Below, in pieces: positions 7,251 through 63,425 of a DNA stretch of 64,000 nucleotides. Origin of the DNA: Haladaptatus sp. DJG-WS-42 (GTDB lineage: Archaea; Halobacteriota; Halobacteria; Halobacteriales; Halococcaceae). The position numbers and the translations under genes were made by a program. Below the pieces are notes generated by a model that made no database searches, had not been told where the DNA came from, and saw nothing but the letters and a program-made list of their open reading frames with translations. The first letter of the stretch is position 1; each line of letters opens with the position of its first letter. The stretch spans positions 1,364,001 through 1,428,000 of the forward strand of contig NZ_CP147243.1 in assembly GCF_037198285.1 (NCBI RefSeq), in the 5' to 3' direction.

Positions 7251-7508
7251 TTACTCGGCGCGCACGATGAGTGCGAGGCCGACGACCACCGCGAGCACGT
7301 AGGCGGGTTGTGCGCTTGCGAACTCGACGAGGTGCGTCAGCGTCAGCCCCATCGTCGCCGACGCTGTTCCTTCGACTGCCGCAGACAATGACCGATAGGC
7401 GACCCGCCCGCCTGCGAGCACCGCGATGAGCCCTGCTGTTTTGAGTGGATAGTCACTCACCACGCCCACAAACCGCCGCGAAATCGCCCGAAGCATATCC
7501 ATTCTCAT
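7251..7508 (-). CDS. Small two-helix membrane protein, unknown function
   Basis: This 85-residue protein has hydrophobic segments near residues 23-37 and 66-82 and a positively charged N-terminus (MLRAISRRF). Its stop codon abuts the metX stop with no gap, so it is convergent with the met operon. Possible ATG starts are at 7508, 7502 and 7496; the first is used here. It lies divergent from the second sulfhydrylase gene. No family recognised. Confidence 0.6.
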   Translation of the reverse strand: MRMDMLRAISRRFVGVVSDYPLKTAGLIAVLAGGRVAYRSLSAAVEGTASATMGLTLTHLVEFASAQPAYVLAVVVGLALIVRAE

Positions 7509-7624: not shown

Positions 7625-8914
7625 ATGTCAGACGAGCATACTCCACGCTTCGCCACTCGGAGCCTGCACGCAGGCCAGGAACCGGACCCGGCGACTGGCG
7701 CACGCGCACCACCGATTCACCAGACGACCTCCTACGTGTTCGACGACGCAGACCACGCCGCCCGCCTCTTCGCGTTAGAAGAGGAGGGCCACATCTACTC
7801 ACGGCTCATGAACCCGACCGTGTCGATGCTCCAAGAGCGCCTCGCCTCGCTCGAAGGCGGCGTTGGCGCGCTCGCGACCGCCTCGGGAATGGCCGCGTTC
7901 GACCTCGCAAACTTCGTCCTCACCGAGCAGGGCAAGAACGTCGTCTCCTCGTCGGCCATCTACGGCGGCACGCACACCTACCTCAGCCACTCAGCGCCGC
8001 GTCGTGGCGTCAACACGACGTTCGTCGATCCGCTCGACTACGACGGCTACGCCGAGGCCATCGACGAGGACACCGCCTACGTCCACGTCGAGACAATTGG
8101 CAATCCCGCGCTCGTCACGCCGGACTTCGAGCGCCTTGCCGATATCGCCCACGACAACGACGTCCCACTGCTCGTGGACAACACGTTCGCGACGCCGTAT
8201 CTGTGCAATCCCTTTGAGCACGGCGCAGACCTCATCTGGCACTCGACCACGAAGTGGATTACCGGTGCGGGCACGACGATTGGCGGCGCGCTCATCGACT
8301 CCGGTAACTTCCCGTGGGAGGATGGCGACTACCCCGAAATCACCGAAGACAACCCGGCCTACCACGGCGTGAACTTCCGCGAGCGCTTTGGCGAAGCCGC
8401 GTTCACCGTCACCGCACTCGCCCGCGGGCTTCGTGACCTCGGCAACCCACAGTCGCCGTTCGACGCGTGGAACGTCCTCCAGAAGTTGGAGACGCTGCCA
8501 CTCAGAATGGAACGTCACTGCGAGAACGCGCTCATCGTCGCCGAGTTCTTAGAAGACCACCCAGACGTATCGTGGGTCACCTACCCCGGCTTAGAAAGCC
8601 ACGAAACCCACGACAACGCCACGAAATACCTGAACGGTGGCTACGGCGGCATGCTCACCTTCGGCTTAGATGGCGGCTACGACACGGCGAAAAAGATGAC
8701 CGAATCGACCGAACTTGCGAGTCTGCTCGCAAACGTCGGCGACGCGAAGACGCTCATCATTCACCCCGCAAGCACGACCCACCAGCAGCTCACCGACGAA
8801 GAAAAAGAATCGAGCGGTGTCCGGCCTGACCTCGTCCGGCTTTCTGTCGGCCTCGAAGACCCAGCCGACATCCTCGCGGACTTAGACCAAGCAATCGACG
8901 CGGCCTCGAACTAG
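7625..8914 (+). CDS. metY: O-acetylhomoserine sulfhydrylase, second paralogue
   Basis: This 429-residue PLP enzyme is of the same family as the gene at 4786 and has the same motif order: [46 protein letters not shown], and [11 protein letters not shown] with lysine at about residue 210. The upstream frame is open from 7445, but ATG 7625 fits both the family start and the TATA box at 7587-7597. It has its own promoter rather than sharing the metX operon, which suggests separate regulation or a different acceptor (for example cysteine synthesis or another sulfur donor). Its 3' end overlaps the convergent serB gene by four bases. Confidence 0.92.
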   Translation: MSDEHTPRFATRSLHAGQEPDPATGARAPPIHQTTSYVFDDADHAARLFALEEEGHIYSRLMNPTVSMLQERLASLEGGVGALATASGMAAFDLANFVLTEQGKNVVSSSAIYGGTHTYLSHSAPRRGVNTTFVDPLDYDGYAEAIDEDTAYVHVETIGNPALVTPDFERLADIAHDNDVPLLVDNTFATPYLCNPFEHGADLIWHSTTKWITGAGTTIGGALIDSGNFPWEDGDYPEITEDNPAYHGVNFRERFGEAAFTVTALARGLRDLGNPQSPFDAWNVLQKLETLPLRMERHCENALIVAEFLEDHPDVSWVTYPGLESHETHDNATKYLNGGYGGMLTFGLDGGYDTAKKMTESTELASLLANVGDAKTLIIHPASTTHQQLTDEEKESSGVRPDLVRLSVGLEDPADILADLDQAIDAASN

Positions 8915-11275: not shown

Positions 11276-11331
11276 GAAAAAGACGAGGACGCTGGTTTTC
11301 ACCCTCCGGGAGTCTGGTGGGAGATGGACCG

Positions 11332-11607
11332 TTATCGGGTCAGGAACGACTGCACGCGATTTTTCGCCCCCTGATCTGTCTGGGAGTCCGAGTCGTGATT
11401 TTCTGGGTGCCTCGTGCGTGCTTCGAGAATCTGTTCGTACTGGTCTACGATGGCCTCAGTGCGCTGTTCTGCTGCCTTGAGTTCTGCTTCGAGACTTGCG
11501 ATGTGGCCTTTGAGCGCGGCAATTCTCGTCTGATACAGTGCGCGTTGGCTGGATGAGAGGTCGCCATCCACCCCACGCGGATTGTCGAGCCGACTTCGTT
11601 GGGACAT
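11332..11607 (-). CDS. Small coiled-coil protein, unknown function
   Basis: This 91-residue hydrophilic protein has a central heptad-rich helix of about 40 residues (RIAALKGHIASLEAELKAAEQ and onward) that should form a coiled coil. N- and C-terminal tails are polar and probably disordered. It lies between serA (convergent) and thrC on the same strand, 105 bp downstream of the thrC stop. I recognise no family. Coding status rests on the open frame and acidic, heptad-patterned composition. Confidence 0.55.
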   Translation of the reverse strand: MSQRSRLDNPRGVDGDLSSSQRALYQTRIAALKGHIASLEAELKAAEQRTEAIVDQYEQILEARTRHPENHDSDSQTDQGAKNRVQSFLTR

Positions 11608-11660
11608 GAGTCAGGGGAGTTAGACTATGACACACACCCACATGAAGTTCAGTCAGACGA

Positions 11661-11693
11661 GTGTGAGACGAGAGGCACACGTCTGTCTCACAC
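11661..11693. repeat. Perfect 9-bp inverted repeat between thrC and the coiled-coil gene
   Basis: GTGTGAGAC at 11661-11669 pairs with GTCTCACAC at 11685-11693 across a 15-base spacer. It is just past the thrC stop and upstream of the small minus-strand gene. It could be a 3'-end hairpin of thrC mRNA or a binding site at the next promoter; no T-run follows on the minus strand. Confidence 0.5.
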
Positions 11694-11712
11694 ACCCGCG
11701 CAGTCGTTCGAT

Positions 11713-12972
11713 TTAGCTCTGTAGGTGGTCGAGAACGCCTTCGGTGGTTCCGGGGACTGGTTCCGGGTCACGGCCCGCGGCCGCCGCAGCGTCCGGGTCT
11801 TTGAGCAGGTGACCCGTCGTGAGACACACGACGCGCTCGTCGGCCGAAACGACGCCCTGTGCGCGGAGTTTGCGCAGGCCCGCCACAGAGGCGGCGCTCG
11901 CGGGTTCGACGCCCACGCCTTCTTCGGCGAGCAACCGCTGGGCGTCGGTAATCTCCTCGTCTGAGACGGCGATGGCGGTGCCGCCCGTCGCGCGAATGCC
12001 GGGCAGGGCTTTCGGTGCGTTCACCGGATTGCCGATACGGATGGCCGTTGCCTTCGTCTCCACCGAATCCCAGCGCGTGACTTCGTCCGCGCCGTTTTCG
12101 ATGGCTTCGACCATCGGTGCTGCGCCTTCTGCCTGCACGCCGGTCAGTTTCGGCACCTCATCTTCGGCCAACTCGCCGGATGCGACGAGTTCGCGGAACG
12201 CCTTGTAGAGCGCCGCCGTGTTCCCGGCGTTCCCCACAGGAAGGACGATTCGGTCGGGGAACTCTCCGGTCTCGTCGCGGACGGATTCGAGAATCTCCAG
12301 ACCAATCGTCTTCTGGCCTTCGAGGCGGAACGGATTGAGCGAGTTGAGCAGATACGCCTCGCCGCGGGCTGCGAGGTCGGAGACGATGTCGAGGCAGGTG
12401 TCGAAGTTGCCGTCCACTTCGAGGATGCGCGCGCCGTGGAGACTGGCTTGGGCAACCTTCCCGGCGGCGACTTTCCCAGCAGGGAGCAAGACGAGCGTTT
12501 CAAGCCCTGAGCGGGTGCCGTAGGCGGCGAGTGCTGCAGACGTGTTCCCGGTGCTCGCACACGCCAGGCGGTCGACGCCGAGGACGCGGGCGACCTGCAC
12601 GCCAACGGTCATGCCGCGGTCTTTGAAACTGCCCGTCGGATTCATGCCTTCGTGCTTGACGCGCAGATACTCGACGCCGACTTCGTCCTCGATTTCAGGG
12701 ACTGGGTAGAGCGGCGTGTTCCCCTCCTGTAAGGTAACGCCCATCTCGACGGGCATGGTCGAACGGTAGCGCCAGACGCCGCTTCCGGAGAAATCGTCGA
12801 AGGTCGGGTAGGAGTCGTAGCGCGCTTCGAGCAAGCCATCGCACGCAGGGCAGGTGTAGAGGATGTCGTCGAACGGTGCGTGGGCTTCGCCACACTCGAT
12901 ACACGCGAGCCAAACGCCGTCGTCTGCGACCTCTGGAACCTCGGGGTCTGGTTCCAACTGGAGATTCGTCAT
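11713..12972 (-). CDS. thrC: Threonine synthase
   Basis: This 419-residue PLP enzyme converts O-phosphohomoserine to threonine. It begins with a small zinc-ribbon-like segment (CIECGEAH and YTCPACDG, residues about 24-47). The fold-type II core then follows, with NPTGSFKDRG carrying the PLP lysine near residue 118, a STGNTSAAL phosphate-facing loop, and the glycine-rich PVGNAGNTAALYKAF. The upstream in-frame extension to 13059 is not family-like, so ATG 12972 is used. It competes with metX for homoserine-derived intermediates. No homoserine kinase is visible in the window. Confidence 0.93.
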   Translation of the reverse strand: MTNLQLEPDPEVPEVADDGVWLACIECGEAHAPFDDILYTCPACDGLLEARYDSYPTFDDFSGSGVWRYRSTMPVEMGVTLQEGNTPLYPVPEIEDEVGVEYLRVKHEGMNPTGSFKDRGMTVGVQVARVLGVDRLACASTGNTSAALAAYGTRSGLETLVLLPAGKVAAGKVAQASLHGARILEVDGNFDTCLDIVSDLAARGEAYLLNSLNPFRLEGQKTIGLEILESVRDETGEFPDRIVLPVGNAGNTAALYKAFRELVASGELAEDEVPKLTGVQAEGAAPMVEAIENGADEVTRWDSVETKATAIRIGNPVNAPKALPGIRATGGTAIAVSDEEITDAQRLLAEEGVGVEPASAASVAGLRKLRAQGVVSADERVVCLTTGHLLKDPDAAAAAGRDPEPVPGTTEGVLDHLQS

Positions 12973-17887: not shown

Positions 17888-18931
17888 TCAGGGAGCCCCC
17901 ACAGGGTGCAGGCCGAGGAAGTCGAGCCCTGCGGTTTCCTCTAAGCCGAGCGCGATGTTGGCCGCGTGAATCGCCTGTCCGGCCGAACCTTTCATCATGT
18001 TGTCGATGGCCGAGAACACGACGAGCCGCTTGTTGCGTGGGTCGAGTTCGAAGCCGACTTCGGCGAAGTTCGTCCCGGCGACGGCCTTCGGTTCGGGGTA
18101 GCGATAGACGCCACCGCCGCCAGCGGCCATGCGAACGAACGGTTCGTCCTCGTAGCTGCCGCGATACGCCTTCCAGAGGTCGCCCTTCGTGACGCGCTCG
18201 TTCGGGAAGACGTGGCAGGTGGCCGATGCGCCGCGAATCATGTCCACGGCGTGGACGGTAAAGGAGACGCGAAGGCCGAGTTCCTGTTCGATTTCCGCCT
18301 CGTGGCGGTGGGTGATGGGCGCGTAGGGGCGGACGATGCCCGAGCGCTCTGCGTGCGAGGAGGCTTTCCCCCCGCTCGCGCCACCCTCTGAGGAACCGAC
18401 TTTCACGTCAACGACGACCTGCTCATCGCCGCCGAGGATGCCGGCTTGGAAGAGCGGGTACAGCCCCATAATCGTCGCCGTGGCGTTACAGCCACCCGCG
18501 GCGATGAGGTCTGCGCCGGGGAGGTCCTCGCGGTGGAGTTCCGGCAGTGCGTAGACGGACTTTTCGAGCAGTTCGGGGCGCTCGTGGCCGTCGTACCACT
18601 GGTCGTACTGATCTGCGGTCTGGAGGCGGAAGTCCGCGCTCAGGTCGACCACCGTATCCGCGGCCTCCTGAAAGCCGTCGATGTGTTGCATCGAGACGCC
18701 GTGGGGCGTCGCGGCAAACAGGATGTCAACGCTCGCTAGGTCGTCAGGTGCAGAAAACCGGAGGTCGGTGCCCCGAAGATTCGGGTGGACAGACCCCACG
18801 GACTTGTTCGCGTATTGGCGGCTCGTTGCCTGGGCCACCTCGAAATCGGGATGGCCGGTCAGCAGGCGCAGGAGTTCGCCGCCGGTAAAGCCGGAGCCGC
18901 CGACGACGGCGGCTGTGAGTTGGTCGCTCAT
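17888..18931 (-). CDS. argC: [LysW]-glutamyl (or -aminoadipyl) phosphate reductase
   Basis: This 347-residue NADPH-dependent reductase forms the semialdehyde. The N-terminal Rossmann start AAVVGGSGFTGGELLRLL (residues 8-25) and the catalytic cysteine in IAAGGCNATATIMGL near residue 150 match ArgC/LysY. KVGSSEGGASGGKASSH and RPYAPITHRHEAEI follow in the expected order. Its ATG shares one base with the argX stop (TGATG), indicating coupled translation within the operon. Confidence 0.94.
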   Translation of the reverse strand: MSDQLTAAVVGGSGFTGGELLRLLTGHPDFEVAQATSRQYANKSVGSVHPNLRGTDLRFSAPDDLASVDILFAATPHGVSMQHIDGFQEAADTVVDLSADFRLQTADQYDQWYDGHERPELLEKSVYALPELHREDLPGADLIAAGGCNATATIMGLYPLFQAGILGGDEQVVVDVKVGSSEGGASGGKASSHAERSGIVRPYAPITHRHEAEIEQELGLRVSFTVHAVDMIRGASATCHVFPNERVTKGDLWKAYRGSYEDEPFVRMAAGGGGVYRYPEPKAVAGTNFAEVGFELDPRNKRLVVFSAIDNMMKGSAGQAIHAANIALGLEETAGLDFLGLHPVGAP

Positions 18932-19791
18932 CAGGCAGGAACCTCGACCTTCACTTTGGATTCGAGCCAGTCGACGACCTTCGCGGGCACGTCTACGTCC
19001 GTCGCGTCGGTGAGCGCCTTGAACTCGACGGTGTGGTTGACCTCGTGGACGGTGTAGCCATCACCGGTCTCCATGAGATCAATGCCGAGCAGACCGCCGC
19101 CGACGGCGTCGCTTGCTTTCTTGACGAGTTCTTTCGCTTCATCGTCGAGCTCGAACGATTCCGTCGTCGCGCCCTTCGCGGCGTTGGTGAGCCAGTGGTC
19201 TGAACTGCGCACCATCGCGGCGATGGGTTCGCCATCGGTTGCGAGCACGCGGATGTCGCGGCCGGGTTTGTCCACGAACTCCTGGATGTAGAACACCTTG
19301 TGCTCGTAGTGGCCAAGCGTTGCTTTGTGTTCTAAGATGGCTTCGGCTGCGTCACGCGAGTCGAGTTTGGCCATCAGGCGGCCCCACGAGCCGACGACGG
19401 GCTTGAGCACGCAGGGGTAGCCGAACTTCTCGATGGACTCCATCGCGCTCTCTTTGGTGAACGCCACGTCCGTCGCGGGCGTCGGCACGCCCGCCTGTGC
19501 GAGTGCGAGGCTGTTTTTCGCCTTGTCGGCGCACACCTCAGCGGTCTCCGGGCTGTTTACGACCGGGATGCCGTAGGCGGCGACGTACTGGGTTGCGTAC
19601 TTGCTCCGGCTCGTGGCGAGACAGCGGTCTAAGACGATGTCGACGTCGTCGAAGATTTCGGGTGCTTCGGTCAGCCCGAACTGCACCTTGCGGACGTCGA
19701 TTTTCGTGACCCCGTGGCCGCGCTCGCGGAGTTCTGCGAGCAGGAGTTTCTCGTCTTTGCGGATACGCGAGTAGAGGATGCCAACGTTCAT
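18931..19791 (-). CDS. argX: Glutamate-LysW ligase (RimK/ATP-grasp family)
   Basis: This 286-residue ATP-grasp enzyme attaches glutamate (or alpha-aminoadipate) to the C-terminal glutamate of LysW. Visible features are an N-terminal domain (NVGILYSRIRKDEKLL), RCLATSRSKYATQYVAAYG, a central ATP-grasp region with PCVLKPVVGSWGRLM near residue 125, YIQEFVDKPGRDIRVL, and the metal-binding LGIDLMETGDGYTVHEVNHT near the end. ATG 19791 was preferred over the in-frame GTG at 19800 because GAGGTG lies six bases before it as a Shine-Dalgarno match. It follows argW by 42 bp. Confidence 0.92.
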   Translation of the reverse strand: MNVGILYSRIRKDEKLLLAELRERGHGVTKIDVRKVQFGLTEAPEIFDDVDIVLDRCLATSRSKYATQYVAAYGIPVVNSPETAEVCADKAKNSLALAQAGVPTPATDVAFTKESAMESIEKFGYPCVLKPVVGSWGRLMAKLDSRDAAEAILEHKATLGHYEHKVFYIQEFVDKPGRDIRVLATDGEPIAAMVRSSDHWLTNAAKGATTESFELDDEAKELVKKASDAVGGGLLGIDLMETGDGYTVHEVNHTVEFKALTDATDVDVPAKVVDWLESKVKVEVPA

Positions 19792-23841: not shown

Positions 23842-24591
23842 ATGATTTGGGTGCCACTTGTCACGAGTATTTTCCTCGCGTCTGGGCTTGGGGGGCTCAT
23901 TCCGGGGGGGACGCGCGCGAACGTGTTTGAACGAATCTTCGTGGTATTCCTCATCCTCGGCACGCTCGTCGGGGTTGTCGTTATCACCTACATGTTGTAC
24001 AATGCGTACAAGTACCGCGACCGACCCGCCCTCGCAGAGTCGGACGCGAAAGACCGCCCACGTCTCGGCGAGATTCCGACCGGCGGTGGTGGCGGGCGAA
24101 AACTGTTTGTCTCGTTTTTCTTGAGCTCGATTATCGTGCTCTCGCTTATCACCTGGACCTACGGAACGTTGCTGTTCGTCGAAGCCGGAGACGTCCCCCA
24201 AGAAGACGAGTTTGTCGTCAAAGTCACCGGCTTCCAGTTCGGCTGGAAGTTTGAGTACCCGAACGGGCACACAACGTCGGGTGAGCTGCGCATTCCAGAG
24301 GGCCAGCGCATCCGCCTTCTCGGCACCTCTGAGGACGTGTTTCACGCCTTTGGCATCCCTGGGTTGCGGGTGAAAATGGACACCATCCCCGGCCAAGAGA
24401 CCTCAACGTGGGTGCTGGCGGATGAACCGGGGTCGTACCAAGCGCAGTGTTACGAACTCTGCGGGGTGGGCCACTCCTACATGACGGCTGACATCATCGT
24501 CATGGAGAACGCTGACTTCGAGGCGTGGTACGCGAACACGACGGCGACAGCGAACGAAACGGCGACGGCAAATCAAACGGTGGCAGCATGA
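23842..24591 (+). CDS. coxB: Cytochrome c oxidase subunit II (CuA subunit)
   Basis: This 249-residue membrane-anchored protein receives electrons for the terminal oxidase. Two helices (about residues 31-54 and 88-112) are followed by an extracellular cupredoxin domain. The CuA ligands are complete: His168 in VFHAF, then Cys203, Glu205, Cys207, His211 and Met214 in [12 protein letters not shown]. The tail is threonine/asparagine/alanine-rich. GTG 23836 is an alternative start; ATG 23842 was chosen. A/T-rich DNA at 23813-23829 is the likely promoter. Its stop overlaps the next gene by four bases. Confidence 0.95.
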
Positions 24592-28015: not shown

Positions 28016-28450
28016 CTACCCGACGGTGACGAGTTTGACGATGACTGCACCGAGAAACAGCAGACCAATGCCCCAGCCGCCGATGGCGGTTGCCTGCGCG
28101 CTGGTCAGTCCACGGGCACGTGCAGAGCCGTACACCCCGGAAAAGAGAAAGCCTGCGAGCACGCTCAGCGCCACGACGACCAGCACGACGCCGACGCTCT
28201 GTTTGAGCACGGCCGGAACTTCCTCGCCGCTCACGTAGAGGATGATTCCTCCACCGAAACCGAGCGAGAGCGCGAGAAAACCCGCGACCCAACTCGCCGG
28301 ATGGTGGGCGAGTCGGGTGGCCGTGCCGACAACGTCTCTATCGGGTTCGGCAAGCGTCCTGATCGGCCCATTTCGGACGAGAAATATCGCCACGGCGACC
28401 AAGAACAGCCCCATCAACAGGGGAATCAGGAGGGTGTCTGCTTGAACCAT
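28016..28450 (-). CDS. Four-helix membrane protein, unknown function
   Basis: This 144-residue protein has hydrophobic segments near residues 7-25, 54-74, 83-105 and 121-142. It carries no conserved histidines in the membrane and no motif I recognise. It is convergent with the oxidase operon; the two stop codons are directly adjacent. The pattern is that of small haloarchaeal integral membrane proteins often found near coxABC, but function is unknown. Confidence 0.65.
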   Translation of the reverse strand: MVQADTLLIPLLMGLFLVAVAIFLVRNGPIRTLAEPDRDVVGTATRLAHHPASWVAGFLALSLGFGGGIILYVSGEEVPAVLKQSVGVVLVVVALSVLAGFLFSGVYGSARARGLTSAQATAIGGWGIGLLFLGAVIVKLVTVG

Positions 28451-28607
28451 GAGTGCAACCTTCCCTAGTCATACGCCATTGTTCGTTATAATTGTATGTT
28501 GACCACTCGCCGTGAGTAGACTCTTTCCTGACATCTCCTCAGTGAATACAATTCTCTAGACAGTCGTTTGCCGGAGTATTTTTATTGAACCGTGTTAATT
28601 TGTGTCT

Positions 28608-48421: not shown

Positions 48422-48497
48422 GCCAAGGTGGCAGAGTCCGGCCAAACGCAGCGGCCTGCAGAGCCGCCCATCGCCGGTTCAAATCCGGCCCTTGGCT
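48422..48497 (+). tRNA. tRNA-Cys (anticodon GCA)
   Basis: This 76-nt tRNA has acceptor GCCAAGG pairing with CCTTGGC, anticodon loop CTGCAGA and T-arm CCGGTTCAAATCCGG. Its discriminator T is the cysteine identity base. It follows 5S, beyond a strong terminator, so it probably has its own promoter (CGCTTAAGCG near 48387-48396). Its 3' 24 bases recur 99 bp downstream. Confidence 0.96.
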
Positions 48498-48887
48498 CTT
48501 CTGACCGAGTGCTACGAGGTCTGAGAGACATCTGGTCGATTTCGAACCCTGAGACGAGCGAAGTGAGTCTCACCGGTTCAAATCCGGCCCTTGGCTTTCT
48601 GTTGCGAACAAATTCGTGAGCGACAGCGCCTACCGGCGTTCTCCTCGGCCTGTCGCATGCGTTCTGGGTTGGAGATAAGTCCGTTAAGACTTCCGTAGTA
48701 GCACGTTATACACTCTCTATCTCTTGTTTGAACTGTTTTGGCGCATGCAGATTCTCGCCCAGAACCTGTTTGTTACCCATACTTTATCTACTTGAAACTG
48801 GATAGCATACGTGACAATGTCTGCGTCTTTGCTTTTATCTGCCCGTGCTTCGGTAAGGGTGTCCGTTGTCCGAAGAGGCGGTATGGT
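48498..48887. other. Non-coding gap after tRNA-Cys
   Basis: Apart from the partial tRNA copy at 48573-48596, about 390 bases hold no convincing gene. The A/T-rich part near 48700-48850 may be the promoter of the sensor kinase. The open frame that starts at 48738 joins the kinase frame but its first 50 residues are cysteine-rich and unlike coding sequence. Confidence 0.5.
48573..48596 (+). repeat. Partial copy of the tRNA-Cys 3' end
   Basis: The last 24 bases of tRNA-Cys (48474-48497, CCGGTTCAAATCCGG then CCCTTGGCT overlapping) recur exactly at 48573-48596. The copy is preceded by the palindrome TGAGAC/GTCTCA (48550-48572) around GAGCGAAGTGA. The rest of the tRNA is absent, so it is not a second gene. 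Confidence 0.88.
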
Positions 48888-49178
48888 ATGACCGCCGAGC
48901 GCGCTTCAAACCTGAGCGAACGCGCCGTCCGAACGGGGAGTATCGGCCTCATCGCTGCTGTTGGCACTATTTTAGCGGGCTTTGAACTCTGGCACACCGC
49001 TCAGATGCAGTCGCTTCTCGGTAAAGTTGTTCAGGCGGTGTTGCCGCTGACCATGGCGCTCATCCTCATCGCCGCCAGCTACGGGCTGTACCGAAGCGAG
49101 ATTGAAACCGCCGAACTACGCAGAATCACCACCTGGTTCGTCATCGGTCTCCTTGGGATGTCGCTGGTAGTTGGTTAG
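48888..49178 (+). pseudogene. N-terminal fragment of a sensor kinase, ended by an in-frame TAG
   Basis: Ninety-six residues contain two full membrane helices (near residues 18-36 and 51-67) and the start of a third (RITTWFVIGLLGMSLVVG). The frame stops at TAG 49176-49178, yet translation resumes in the same frame with VIGHQFIRGMAFHHWQF, continuing helix three and four into the histidine kinase at 49206. A single G-to-A change of TGG (Trp) would explain it. It could be a real nonsense mutation, a sequencing error, or a readthrough stop. Confidence 0.75.
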
Positions 49179-49205
49179 GTTATCGGCCACCAGTTCATTC
49201 GTGGG

Positions 49206-51137
49206 ATGGCGTTTCATCACTGGCAGTTCGTGGTTGTAGGCAGCATGACGGTGGGGGGGTTGGTTGGGTTGTTGATTGGGGTGTACGATGCGCACAGACG
49301 AATAGAACACCGCGCGGCCGAACAGACGAGGCAAGCGGTTGGTGCATCGAGAGACGGCATAGCCATCCTCACCGAGGCGGGCGAGTACGAACAGGTAAAC
49401 CAAGCCCACGCGGAAGTGTACGGCTACGACGACCCCGAGGTGTTCATCGGACGGACGTTTCACATGTGCTACGAGGATGCAGAAGCCGTCCGCATCGAAG
49501 ACGAGGTTTTGCCCGCGCTCTCAGAGACGGGAAGTTGGCGGGGCGAACTCACTGGCCTGCGGTGGGACGGGGAAACGTACCCACAGGAAATCACCTTCTC
49601 ATCGCGGCCACAGGGTGGTTACATCTACGTCGTTCGCGACATCTCAGAGCGGGTTGAGTTCGAACAGCAACTCATCACTCGCGAGTTGCGGCTGCGGACG
49701 ATTCTCGAAAATATGCCAATCATTCTGTTCGTCGTCTCTGCTGACCGCACGATTACCCTGGAGGTCGGCAAGGGCTTAGAACAGGTTTCACGTGAGCAAA
49801 ACCAGCATGTCGGCTCGACTGTTGTAGACCTGTTTGGCACGGAACGCGAGATTACCGACGCGATCGAACGCAGCTTCGACGGTGCGTTCGTCGATGTGAT
49901 ACTCGATATGTGGGGCCGAACATATCAGGTATGGGGCCAACCTGTAGAGGAATCTGGTGAAATCACGAGCGTCATCGCCGTTGCAATGGACGTGACCGAG
50001 CGGCACAAACGTGAGCGTGGAATCAGCGCGCTCAACGAAGCGACGCAGGCGATGATGCAAGAACTTACCCACGAAGAGATTGCACAGCTTGCGGTTCTCA
50101 CTGCACAGAACGACTTCAACCTCTCACGCCCCGGCATCTGGTTGCAAAGCGATGACGAATCCCTGAAGCCAGTTGCGTGGGCGACTACCGCTGACGTTTC
50201 GGCCGACGATTTGCCGACGTTCACCCCCGAAAGCGGTGCCGTGTGGGAGGCCTACGAGAGCGGTGAGATTCAGATTGCTGACGATGTCGAGCGCGGATTT
50301 GCGGACGCGGACACAGTTGGTGGTGAGTTAATCGTTCCGCTCGGTGAGTTCGGTGTGTTGGTCAGCGGTAGTTCAACCGCCCATCAGTTCGATGAAACAG
50401 ACATGGTACTCGCACAGCTACTCGTCGAAAATACGCGGACCGCACTCGAACGGGCGGCGCGCGAAAAGGACTTACAGCGCCAGACAGAGCAGATGGAGTT
50501 TTTCAACTCGATTCTCCGTCACGACGTATTAAACGGGATGACGGTGATACGGTCGCGCGCCGAGTTCCTCGTAGAAGACCTCGACGCCGACCAGTCAAAA
50601 GACGCGGAGACGATTATCAATTGGAGTAACAACATCATCGGCATCGTCCGTCGGGTGCGAACCATCCTCGATACGCTAAGCGGTAATACAGACCCGAACC
50701 TCGAAGACACGTCCCTCTCGTTGGTGCTCAGAGATGAGGTCAACCGAATCCAAGACACCTACCCCGAAGTCGAGTTCGAGACCATCATCCCCGATGATAT
50801 CATGGTTTTCGCAAACGAACTGCTCGGGGAGGTGTTCGGCAATGTTCTCACGAATGCAATAAACCACAACGACGAAGACGGACTCCGTATTTCGGTGACT
50901 GCAGCGGTGTCCGAAAACCGCGCCACGGTTCGCATCGCCGACAACGGCTGTGGGATTCCAGACGACCGCAAAGAGCGTATCTTCCGGCGCGATGAGACGG
51001 GCCACGCCAAATCGACTGGCTCTGGCTTTGGCCTCTTTTTCGTCGATTCGATGGTCACAGAGTACGGTGGTTCCATCTCGGTTGAGGACAACGACTCTGA
51101 CGGAGCCGTGTTCGTGATTGAACTTCCGCTTGCCTAA
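49206..51137 (+). CDS. PAS/GAF sensor histidine kinase (downstream part of an interrupted frame)
   Basis: The 643 residues from ATG 49206 carry one membrane helix (residues about 6-25), two PAS-like domains (about 40-150 and 165-270), a GAF-like domain (about 285-410) and the kinase core. The phospho-acceptor is His439 in NSILRHDVLNGM. The N box is FGNVLTNAINHND, and the G boxes are ADNGCGIPD and GSGFGLFFVDSMV. This organisation, with a four-helix N-terminus, is typical of haloarchaeal kinases; here the first helices are cut off by the TAG at 49176. ATG 49206 has no good Shine-Dalgarno. The response regulator at 51220 is the likely partner. Confidence 0.85.
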   Translation: MAFHHWQFVVVGSMTVGGLVGLLIGVYDAHRRIEHRAAEQTRQAVGASRDGIAILTEAGEYEQVNQAHAEVYGYDDPEVFIGRTFHMCYEDAEAVRIEDEVLPALSETGSWRGELTGLRWDGETYPQEITFSSRPQGGYIYVVRDISERVEFEQQLITRELRLRTILENMPIILFVVSADRTITLEVGKGLEQVSREQNQHVGSTVVDLFGTEREITDAIERSFDGAFVDVILDMWGRTYQVWGQPVEESGEITSVIAVAMDVTERHKRERGISALNEATQAMMQELTHEEIAQLAVLTAQNDFNLSRPGIWLQSDDESLKPVAWATTADVSADDLPTFTPESGAVWEAYESGEIQIADDVERGFADADTVGGELIVPLGEFGVLVSGSSTAHQFDETDMVLAQLLVENTRTALERAAREKDLQRQTEQMEFFNSILRHDVLNGMTVIRSRAEFLVEDLDADQSKDAETIINWSNNIIGIVRRVRTILDTLSGNTDPNLEDTSLSLVLRDEVNRIQDTYPEVEFETIIPDDIMVFANELLGEVFGNVLTNAINHNDEDGLRISVTAAVSENRATVRIADNGCGIPDDRKERIFRRDETGHAKSTGSGFGLFFVDSMVTEYGGSISVEDNDSDGAVFVIELPLA

Positions 51138-51219
51138 TGGCGGCTCGTTATCGAATTGTTTGCTTCGGATATTTCGAGACAAAGTATCAAGGGGTATGCA
51201 TCCGTACACTGTGAGTATC

Positions 51220-51816
51220 ATGGTTACTGCTGCGCAGCCAACCGTGCTCATCGTCGAAGATGAGTTAGACGTGGCCGAGACCTACGAGCGGTGGCTGGCA
51301 GCTGACTACACCGTCGTCCTTGCAACGTCCGGGAGCGAGGCACTCTCGAAACTCGACGATTCGGTCGATGTCGTCCTCTTAGACCGGATGATGCCGGAGA
51401 TGTCCGGCGATGCGGTGCTCGAAGAAATCCGTTCGAGAGATATCGATTGCCGAGTGGCGATGGTGACAGCCGTAGACCCCGATTTCGACATCATCGAAAT
51501 GGGCTTTGACGAATACGTCACGAAACCGCCCACACGCGACCAACTGCGTGACACCGTCGAACGCCTGCTCGCTCGCGGTGCGGTCGCAGGCGACTTACAA
51601 CAGTATTTCTCGCTCGTCGCTCGCAAAGCCGCGCTCGAAGCCGAGTTCACCCGTCGCGTACTCGAATCGAACGAGGAGTACAACGACCTCGTCGCCCGAA
51701 TCGAACGCGCGCGAGCGAACCTCGACACGTCGTTCGATGGGCTCTCATCTGATTCTGATTTTATTGGGGTGTTGCGTGCGATTGTCGACGACGACTCGTC
51801 TTCTGACACGTCGTAA
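51220..51816 (+). CDS. HalX-type response regulator
   Basis: This 198-residue protein has a receiver domain (TVLIVEDELDVAETYERWL near residues 7-25) with the phospho-aspartate at Asp55 in VVLLDRMMPEMSG. The switch threonine is in VAMVTAVD and the lysine in DEYVTKPPT. A C-terminal HalX helical domain (about 130-185) contains KAALEAEFTRRVLE. No DNA-binding domain is evident, as usual for the group. ATG 51196 would add eight residues. It follows the kinase gene by 82 bp on the same strand. Confidence 0.87.
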   Translation: MVTAAQPTVLIVEDELDVAETYERWLAADYTVVLATSGSEALSKLDDSVDVVLLDRMMPEMSGDAVLEEIRSRDIDCRVAMVTAVDPDFDIIEMGFDEYVTKPPTRDQLRDTVERLLARGAVAGDLQQYFSLVARKAALEAEFTRRVLESNEEYNDLVARIERARANLDTSFDGLSSDSDFIGVLRAIVDDDSSSDTS

Positions 51817-52830: not shown

Positions 52831-53388
52831 TCAGATAAAAATGCGGACGACGAGAAACAGGATGATGACCCCAAGCACGTCAGAGGCGTTCGTGACGACG
52901 GGAATCACCACGTCGTCGGGGTCCAGTTCGAAGCGGTAGGCTGCGTACGTCGCGATGAAGGTGATGACGACGGCCACCACCGCGAGGGTCGCCCCGCTCG
53001 TCACTGAGACGAGCAACACCGTCACCATCGGGAGGTCAGTGCCGACAGTCAGCCACGCGAGCACCCACGCACCGACGCCAACCACGGGGAAGACGGTGAG
53101 CGCGAGGCCGATTGTCGCAAGCGCGTTCCCGAGGAGGGTTTCGTCCGCCCAACCAAAGGAGAGCAGTCCGAGGTGAAATGCCGTCGAGAGTCGCGCGGCG
53201 AGGATACTTCCAAGATTCCCGGCGGTGCCGATGGTGACGGGGACGAGCACGAGCAGTGTGGGATACCGAAGCAGCGTGGTCTCGAACGTTCCGAGGACCA
53301 GCCCACTGCCGATTTCAACGAGGGTGAGCGGGAGTAAGACGGGGAGCATCGCACGAGTAATCGCCTTGACGGTCCACTCGGTGGGCAT
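52831..53388 (-). CDS. MgtE-like membrane domain protein, subunit B
   Basis: This 185-residue protein contains only the five-helix membrane half of the MgtE family. Signature segments are PVTIGTAGNLGSILAARLS near residues 50-68 and DVVIPVVTNASDVLGVIILF near the end. The cytoplasmic N and CBS domains that gate bacterial MgtE are missing. The preceding gene (53389) encodes a second such half, stop and start adjacent, so the two probably form a heterodimer. Mg2+ or another divalent ion is the expected cargo. Confidence 0.82.
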   Translation of the reverse strand: MPTEWTVKAITRAMLPVLLPLTLVEIGSGLVLGTFETTLLRYPTLLVLVPVTIGTAGNLGSILAARLSTAFHLGLLSFGWADETLLGNALATIGLALTVFPVVGVGAWVLAWLTVGTDLPMVTVLLVSVTSGATLAVVAVVITFIATYAAYRFELDPDDVVIPVVTNASDVLGVIILFLVVRIFI

Positions 53389-53967
53389 CTACCCACCCCC
53401 CAGCGCGAGGACGGTTCGCACGGCGAGCAACAGAAAGGCGAGACCGAACACGTCACCGGTCGTCGTCACGACGGGGCCAACGAGCGTGTCTGGATTGTGC
53501 CCGCGACGGTATCCCGCGAAGACGACGGTCACGACAACCCCCGAGAGCGCAATTCCAGAGAGTAGGCCCGCGATGAGCGCAATTGCGAGTAACGTTCCGA
53601 GCGGTGCGACCGGTCTCGATAACCCGCCGAGGACGAAAAACGTGAGCGACGCCGCGAACAGACTGGCTAAAATACCGTTGGCCATCGCTGCCGCCACTGC
53701 CGACTGGAGTCTGCGGTCGCCGTTGAAGACGTGGGGTTCGACAAGCCCTTGATGGAGGCCGGTTGCGAGGCGCGCCCCGAGCGAGCCGTAGACGTTCCCG
53801 CGGGTGGCGAGGAGGGCGGGAATCAACACGAGAAGACCGGCGACATCCTGCAGTTCGGCGCGCATCCCGCTCAAGACAACCCCGGCGAACAGGCCGCCCG
53901 CAACACTCGCAGTGAGCGCCGGGAGGGCTTCCCGGTACGCCTCTAGTGCGATGTCGCGGGCACTCAT
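53389..53967 (-). CDS. MgtE-like membrane domain protein, subunit A
   Basis: This 192-residue partner of the next gene has the matching segments PALLATRGNVYGSLGARL near residues 49-66 and TLVGPVVTTTGDVFGLAFLL near 155-175. Again there is no CBS domain. The paired genes abut with no intergenic bases, which implies coupled, balanced expression. The two halves are diverged from each other but aligned end to end, indicating an old duplication. Confidence 0.82.
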   Translation of the reverse strand: MSARDIALEAYREALPALTASVAGGLFAGVVLSGMRAELQDVAGLLVLIPALLATRGNVYGSLGARLATGLHQGLVEPHVFNGDRRLQSAVAAAMANGILASLFAASLTFFVLGGLSRPVAPLGTLLAIALIAGLLSGIALSGVVVTVVFAGYRRGHNPDTLVGPVVTTTGDVFGLAFLLLAVRTVLALGGG

Positions 53968-62527: not shown

Positions 62528-63005
62528 TCGGTTCTACTGGCTTACAAACTTTTGAAAAACGCGCACGATAAACCCCAGACACCCCTCCTTGTTTCCGCTC
62601 CCATCCCCATGAGCCAGTGTGGTAAATCGTTCCCCAACGAGCCACAACGGTTCACCCCCATGAACCTCCCCCCTGTTGCTGTATGATCCTTTTCGCGCCC
62701 CCCACGCGAACTCGGTCTGAAACCGAGACAGACTCAGCAGTTTGCTGCAATTCCCCCTAATTTCCCTCAGTTGATACCTCATCCCAAGAACTCGGAATCT
62801 CTGGTATCAACCTAATAATGAACCTAATAGATAATAAAGCTATTGTTAATTTATCATTCTTGATAAGTAGAATCTGGGGCTTTCAGACTTTATTCCACAC
62901 ACTATCGGTTATTGATGTATTTATATATATTTTTCCAGACTGTTTCTACACGCACGTTTTTGGCTGCGGAATCCTTTTAGGGCGCTCTCTCATACTCAGG
63001 ACAAT
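62528..63005. other. AT-rich intergenic region with inverted repeats
   Basis: No gene is evident. GTTGATACC (62770-62778) and GGTATCAAC (62803-62811) form a perfect 9-bp inverted repeat. CTCGGT/ACCGAG at 62711 and 62722 form a short hairpin. The segment 62812-62950 is very rich in A and T for this genome (runs such as TATTTATATATATTTTT). A CCTTTTAGG element near 62974-62982 is the probable sufU promoter, giving a start close to 63003. Confidence 0.6.
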
Positions 63006-63425
63006 ATGGGACTGGGTTCGGACATGTACCGACAGCAGATTCTCGACCACTACAAAAACCCGCGTAACTACGGGAATTTGGAGAATCCGACGTTCACCCA
63101 CGTCGGCGAGAATCCGCTGTGTGGTGACGAGATTAGTATGGACGTCGTCTTAGACGAGGACGAGGAAACGATCGTCCGCGTTGCCTTTACTGGCGACGGC
63201 TGTGCCATCAGTCAGGCAAGCGCCAGCCTCCTCTCACAGAAACTGCCGGGGATGACCGTAGACGAACTCGAAGCCTTAGACCGCGACGACATGATCGACC
63301 TGCTCGGCGTTGACATCAGCCCGATGCGCGTAAAGTGCGCCGTGCTCGCAGAGAAAGTCGCCCAAGACGGTGCGGAGATTTACTTCGGCGAGAAAGAACT
63401 CGATAAGACCGTCACCGAAGAGTAG
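63006..63425 (+). CDS. sufU: SufU-type Fe-S scaffold/sulfur-transfer protein
   Basis: This 139-residue protein has the three cysteines of the IscU/SufU family: Cys39 in NPLCGDEI, Cys66 in GDGCAISQAS and Cys111 in RVKCAVLAE. DHYKNPRNYGNLENPT is the conserved start. The spacing fits SufU, which accepts sulfur from SufS and binds zinc. It starts with ATG 63006 at a predicted leaderless start. It is downstream of sufS on the same strand. Confidence 0.93.
   Translation: MGLGSDMYRQQILDHYKNPRNYGNLENPTFTHVGENPLCGDEISMDVVLDEDEETIVRVAFTGDGCAISQASASLLSQKLPGMTVDELEALDRDDMIDLLGVDISPMRVKCAVLAEKVAQDGAEIYFGEKELDKTVTEE

Follow-up and report, generated by a model that had tools for sequence, protein, structure and literature searches.

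Introduction

Haloarchaeal sensor kinases of the HisKA_4TM family (PF16926) also carry PAS, GAF and HATPase_c domains. Response regulators with REC and HalX domains are widespread in Halobacteria, and the available extract of the paper that describes them gives their output function as undocumented (PMC5847659). In-frame TAG codons are a feature of pyrrolysine genes. According to the available extract of a review, Sec and Pyl readthrough are the only kinds demonstrated in archaea (PMC8211752). Pyl pairs of a halophilic methanogen have been tested in Haloferax volcanii, and the extract of that report at hand mentions no Pyl system native to haloarchaea (PMC11467909).

Here we analyse a kinase and regulator locus of Haladaptatus sp. 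DJG-WS-42, contained in a 64,000-nucleotide stretch of its genome (hereinafter the window), in which the kinase frame is interrupted by TAG. The literature on haloarchaeal pyrrolysine, stop codon readthrough, HalX kinases and kinase pseudogenes yielded nothing that appears to concern this gene. The genus sample comprises three species genomes, namely that of the window (G000), G001 and the sister species G002.

Results

The kinase frame and its domains

Translation confirms the initial annotation of one 750-codon frame at 48888-51137, consisting of 96 codons, TAG, 652 sense codons and TAA; the TAG and the TAA at 51135 are its only in-frame stops (Table 1). Hydrophobic segments peak at residues 16-34, 43-61, 82-100 and 114-132. 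The TAG corresponds to residue 97 and, as initially described, falls within the third of these four segments. Base composition by codon position is that of coding DNA both 5' and 3' of the TAG. An alternative in-frame start, TTG at 48738, lies upstream of the inferred start.

Table 1. Features of the locus, in window coordinates
Feature	Position	Strand	Basis or remark
tRNA-Cys(GCA), closing the rRNA operon and immediately preceding the kinase	48422..48498	+
Kinase 5' part: start, helices 1 and 2, most of helix 3, ending at TAG	48888..49178	+	Start codon inferred
In-frame TAG; TGG (Trp) in the G001 orthologue	49176..49178	+	Alignment
Kinase 3' part: end of helix 3, helix 4, PAS, PAS, GAF, HisKA-like, HATPase_c; 652 open codons	49179..51137	+
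First in-frame ATG past the stop, possible restart; Val in the orthologue	49206..49208	+
Regulator leader	51177..51206	+	28/30 bases conserved in G002, DNA upstream wholly different
REC-HalX response regulator, intact partner gene	51220..51816	+	Both domains over cut-offs; 87% identical in G002

With the stop read as Trp, HisKA_4TM (26.0 bits, cut-off 22.6), PAS_4, GAF_2 and HATPase_c (75 bits, cut-off 26.4) all score above their Pfam cut-offs. Together with the four hydrophobic segments, these matches bear out the four-helix/PAS/PAS/GAF/kinase architecture proposed earlier, as does the REC-HalX gene for the downstream response regulator. The HisKA phosphoacceptor region scores 18.9 bits, under its cut-off of 26.9, and an RHD motif was seen by eye. 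By eye, the catalytic motifs downstream of the TAG look intact. Scanned alone against Pfam, the 96-residue piece before the TAG matched no family.

The gene is a disrupted member of the HisKA_4TM family. Specifically, its domain order and hydrophobic segments are those of the haloarchaeal members, but a stop at 49176 interrupts the frame and takes the place of the consensus Trp in helix 3. Because 652 codons are open with coding base composition, and because identity to an orthologue is 60% across the stop, the frame is judged to be a real gene and not a chance one.

A G-rich run with seven consecutive G (49253-49281) lies in the part encoding helix 4 and is one of three G/C runs of seven or more in the window. 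As a candidate signal it was dropped, with 19 such motifs on the window plus strand.

The residue at the stop position in relatives

In its own genome, 26 places match the kinase protein at E ≤ 0.001, and the window copy alone has an internal stop. G001 contains one full-length orthologue, located on a contig of 330,897 bases and 60% identical over residues 10-746. The codon in the TAG column is TGG, and a REC-HalX regulator (68%) then follows, the gene order kinase to REC-HalX being common to the window and G001. This is the one full-length orthologue found, so Trp at the exact column in the closest subfamily is the residue of a single sequence.

The wider search covered 392 genomes of the order. 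Matches at E ≤ 1e-120 occur in 10 of them, including the window genome, with the stop in the window copy only. The membrane part, used as query, matches 81 of the 392 genomes at E ≤ 1e-25; among the matches listed, the stop is confined to the window copy, and many of these matches begin past the stop position and are uninformative about that column.

We then consider the multiple alignment of the window kinase with 12 relatives, from which near-identical copies were removed. Trp occupies the stop column in 7 of the 10 relatives with a membrane region and a two-residue gap in the other 3, a count that excludes two relatives (L100 and L105) aligned in the PAS part only. Pairwise alignments give Val or Ala in that column for L013, L015, L016 and L018, which makes the Trp of L015 and L016 less certain, and Val for L087, where the multiple alignment has a gap. 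By this alignment Trp is the family consensus at the position of the stop, and a single base separates TAG from TGG. The one-base change of TGG suggested initially thus agrees with the orthologue. Natural splitting of the gene at this point, a check raised along with that suggestion, is not seen in any aligned relative. Viral contigs held no second copy with TAG or TGG, in a collection not expected to contain one.

The kinase probably lost full-length translation when a single-base nonsense mutation turned TGG into TAG in membrane helix 3. Translation would stop after residue 96 and yield a fragment without signalling domains, and little or no kinase would be produced from the downstream part. 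The mutation would have arisen in the window lineage once it had separated from the sister species. G001 supplies the intact orthologue expected for a pseudogene made by nonsense mutation, its sense codon TGG differing from TAG by one base. The counterpoint to inactivation is that the whole downstream frame is open, as it would also be if it were still being used.

About 5 kb away from the G001 orthologue lies a partial kinase paralogue (L017, G001:C3:81714-82439) whose match contains an in-frame TGA; broken kinases of this group may occur in G001 too.

Accuracy of the sequence around the stop

The equal lengths of four neighbouring genes (331, 185, 192 and 462 aa) in the sister species, together with a single closed contig and a completeness of 97.55%, argue against an error of sequencing or assembly, and against a mutation confined to the sequenced culture, under either of which the natural gene would be intact. 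The neighbouring genes give no hint of low sequence quality. A lone substitution with nothing else damaged is nonetheless what an error would leave. In a 55-row comparison with G002, the window stops, placed by judging against the window ORF list, fall in antisense frames, ahead of start codons of the window, within the rRNA region or in the ambiguous frame 11299-11721. We regard such an error as unlikely and take the mutation to be probably real. The ambiguous frame, of 149 codons, is open in G002 and has a stop in the window, and is a candidate gene.

Two of the neighbouring genes are short and adjacent (52831-53388 and 53389-53967, 185 and 192 aa), with equal lengths in G001 and G002. An MgtE domain is present in the second, the one of the two that was scanned, and the transporter may be produced as two half-size proteins.

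Decoding of TAG

TAG ends 14 of the 58 mechanically chosen ORFs of the window, the truncated kinase piece included. Three ORFs (62919-63422, 28019-28594 and 17891-18997) end at the same position in the window and in G002, one species using TAG there and the other TAA or TGA. TAG also terminates genes of known families in both the window and G002 (PLP enzyme at 7445, HAD at 8911, COX1 at 24525 and the MgtE half at 53389). From these same-position ends and shared TAG-terminated families, we infer that TAG is an ordinary stop in this genome.

A PylS search of the own genome gave no match over the cut-off (best match 23 bits, cut-off 178.15 bits). The same search matches in 13 of 14 control genomes as well, and above the cut-off in one. 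The anticodons of all 44 Rfam tRNA matches in the genome were read (30 from the Rfam match loci, 13 from fetched stretches and one being the window tRNA-Cys), and none is CUA, with the proviso that a tRNA too aberrant for the Rfam model might escape this search. tRNA-Trp is absent from the Rfam matches, presumably missed by the model through an intron. A search with a pattern for haloarchaeal tRNA-Trp, open to both CCA and CUA, found one place, with anticodon CCA.

RNA folding on either side of the TAG gave no sign of a readthrough element. For the 145 nt from the stop onward, 199 of 200 shuffled sequences reach an equal or better fold (z +1.92), and the 147 nt before the stop are ordinary (z −0.31).

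The window kinase shares an in-frame TAG with pyrrolysine genes, but it occurs without PylS or a seen CUA tRNA, it is not a methylamine methyltransferase and its relatives have Trp. Pyrrolysine or suppressor decoding was rejected, with PylS under the cut-off, no CUA tRNA seen and TAG a normal stop. Programmed readthrough through a suppressor or pyrrolysine tRNA, which has the open frame past the stop as the one point in its favour, is highly improbable, since it also meets no unusual RNA structure and a stop that is not conserved, with TGG in the only full-length orthologue. Among the three options of the initial annotation, the point mutation is strengthened by Trp in the orthologue and in the consensus, whereas regulated readthrough gains nothing from the PylS, tRNA, RNA-fold, stop-usage or orthologue comparisons.

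Possible restart past the stop and age of the lesion

Restart at the ATG at 49206, 27 bases past the TAG, is the main functional rival to loss of the kinase. The product, of 643 residues, would comprise helix 4, both PAS domains, GAF and the catalytic core, and would still act on the HalX regulator. The frame past the TAG is intact, as restart needs, and the available extract of one report documents termination-reinitiation for pairs of overlapping genes of Haloferax volcanii (PMC6728339). However, the Met at this position is Val in the orthologue and the ATG is therefore not a conserved start, no clear Shine-Dalgarno motif precedes it by eye, and the sensor bundle would be without three of its four helices. 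Restart is quite unlikely, and a frame that has stayed open only briefly would need no use to explain it.

How briefly is indicated by a neutral simulation without indels of the 1,956 bases past the stop, in which, at 0.04 substitutions per site, the frame stays free of new stops with a probability of about 0.07-0.11, and at 0.06 with one of about 0.02-0.04. If the downstream frame is neutral, its openness limits the age of the lesion to some 0.04-0.06 substitutions per site. Because this limit is below the synonymous divergence between the window and G002 (0.25-0.50 across five neighbouring genes, including the regulator), the lesion would postdate the species split by far, unless the downstream part is still in use. 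The case is most likely an ordinary recent nonsense mutation in one sensor kinase, with a sister species lacking the kinase as an added point.

The HalX regulator in the absence of an intact kinase

The genome of G002 is collinear with the window through the operon, tRNA-Cys, the regulator and the downstream genes, at DNA identities of 96.2% and 91.1%. The 2.5 kb of the window that include the kinase correspond to about 250 bases of unrelated sequence in G002, where the regulator stands directly behind tRNA-Cys with its conserved leader retained (L128, 8378-9005). Between tRNA-Cys and the regulator of G002 there is no kinase remnant, only the flanks and chance-size matches, and elsewhere in the G002 genome there is no full-length or comparable kinase match. 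The corresponding chromosomal site of G001 is without kinase or regulator, the pair being on another contig. As the two genes stand together in both G000 and G001, loss of the kinase from G002 by deletion is the simpler reading; insertion of the kinase between tRNA-Cys and the regulator in G000 is the less simple possibility.

The window regulator has both domains of REC-HalX proteins, but the adjoining kinase is interrupted here and absent in G002. Its dN/dS against G002 is 0.15, compared with 0.02-0.07 for four neighbouring genes, values that average all time since the split and do not date selection to after the loss of the kinase. By this measure the regulator is under purifying selection, looser than that on its neighbours. 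The leader is probably the regulator's own promoter region, and with it the regulator is probably still made. Because G002 keeps the regulator at the same site without the kinase, the sensor looks dispensable in this genus.

A broader proposal is that the HalX regulator outlives the kinase in the genus, the kinase having been lost by deletion from one species and through a nonsense codon in another, while regulator and leader stay under purifying selection. The regulator would then act through another kinase or without phosphorylation. The nearest paralogous kinase in the own genome, whose frame is open over 933 codons (54% identity over residues 254-748, 44% over the membrane part), may serve the regulator. 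We put this proposal forward tentatively and think it possible, though doubtful.

As a stop in one of many haloarchaeal sensor kinases, the mutation is of little importance. If it is real, two related species are without the kinase by different routes and have kept the HalX regulator, which makes a small natural experiment. The species pair could show whether HalX regulators need a neighbouring kinase.

The 3' end of tRNA-Cys (48471-48497) is repeated 99 bases downstream at 48570-48596, with 26 of 27 nt identical. The flank that follows tRNA-Cys in G001 and G002 stands after the second copy of the repeat in the window. The repeat resembles a scar left by insertion at the end of the tRNA, and of the three species only that of the window has it.
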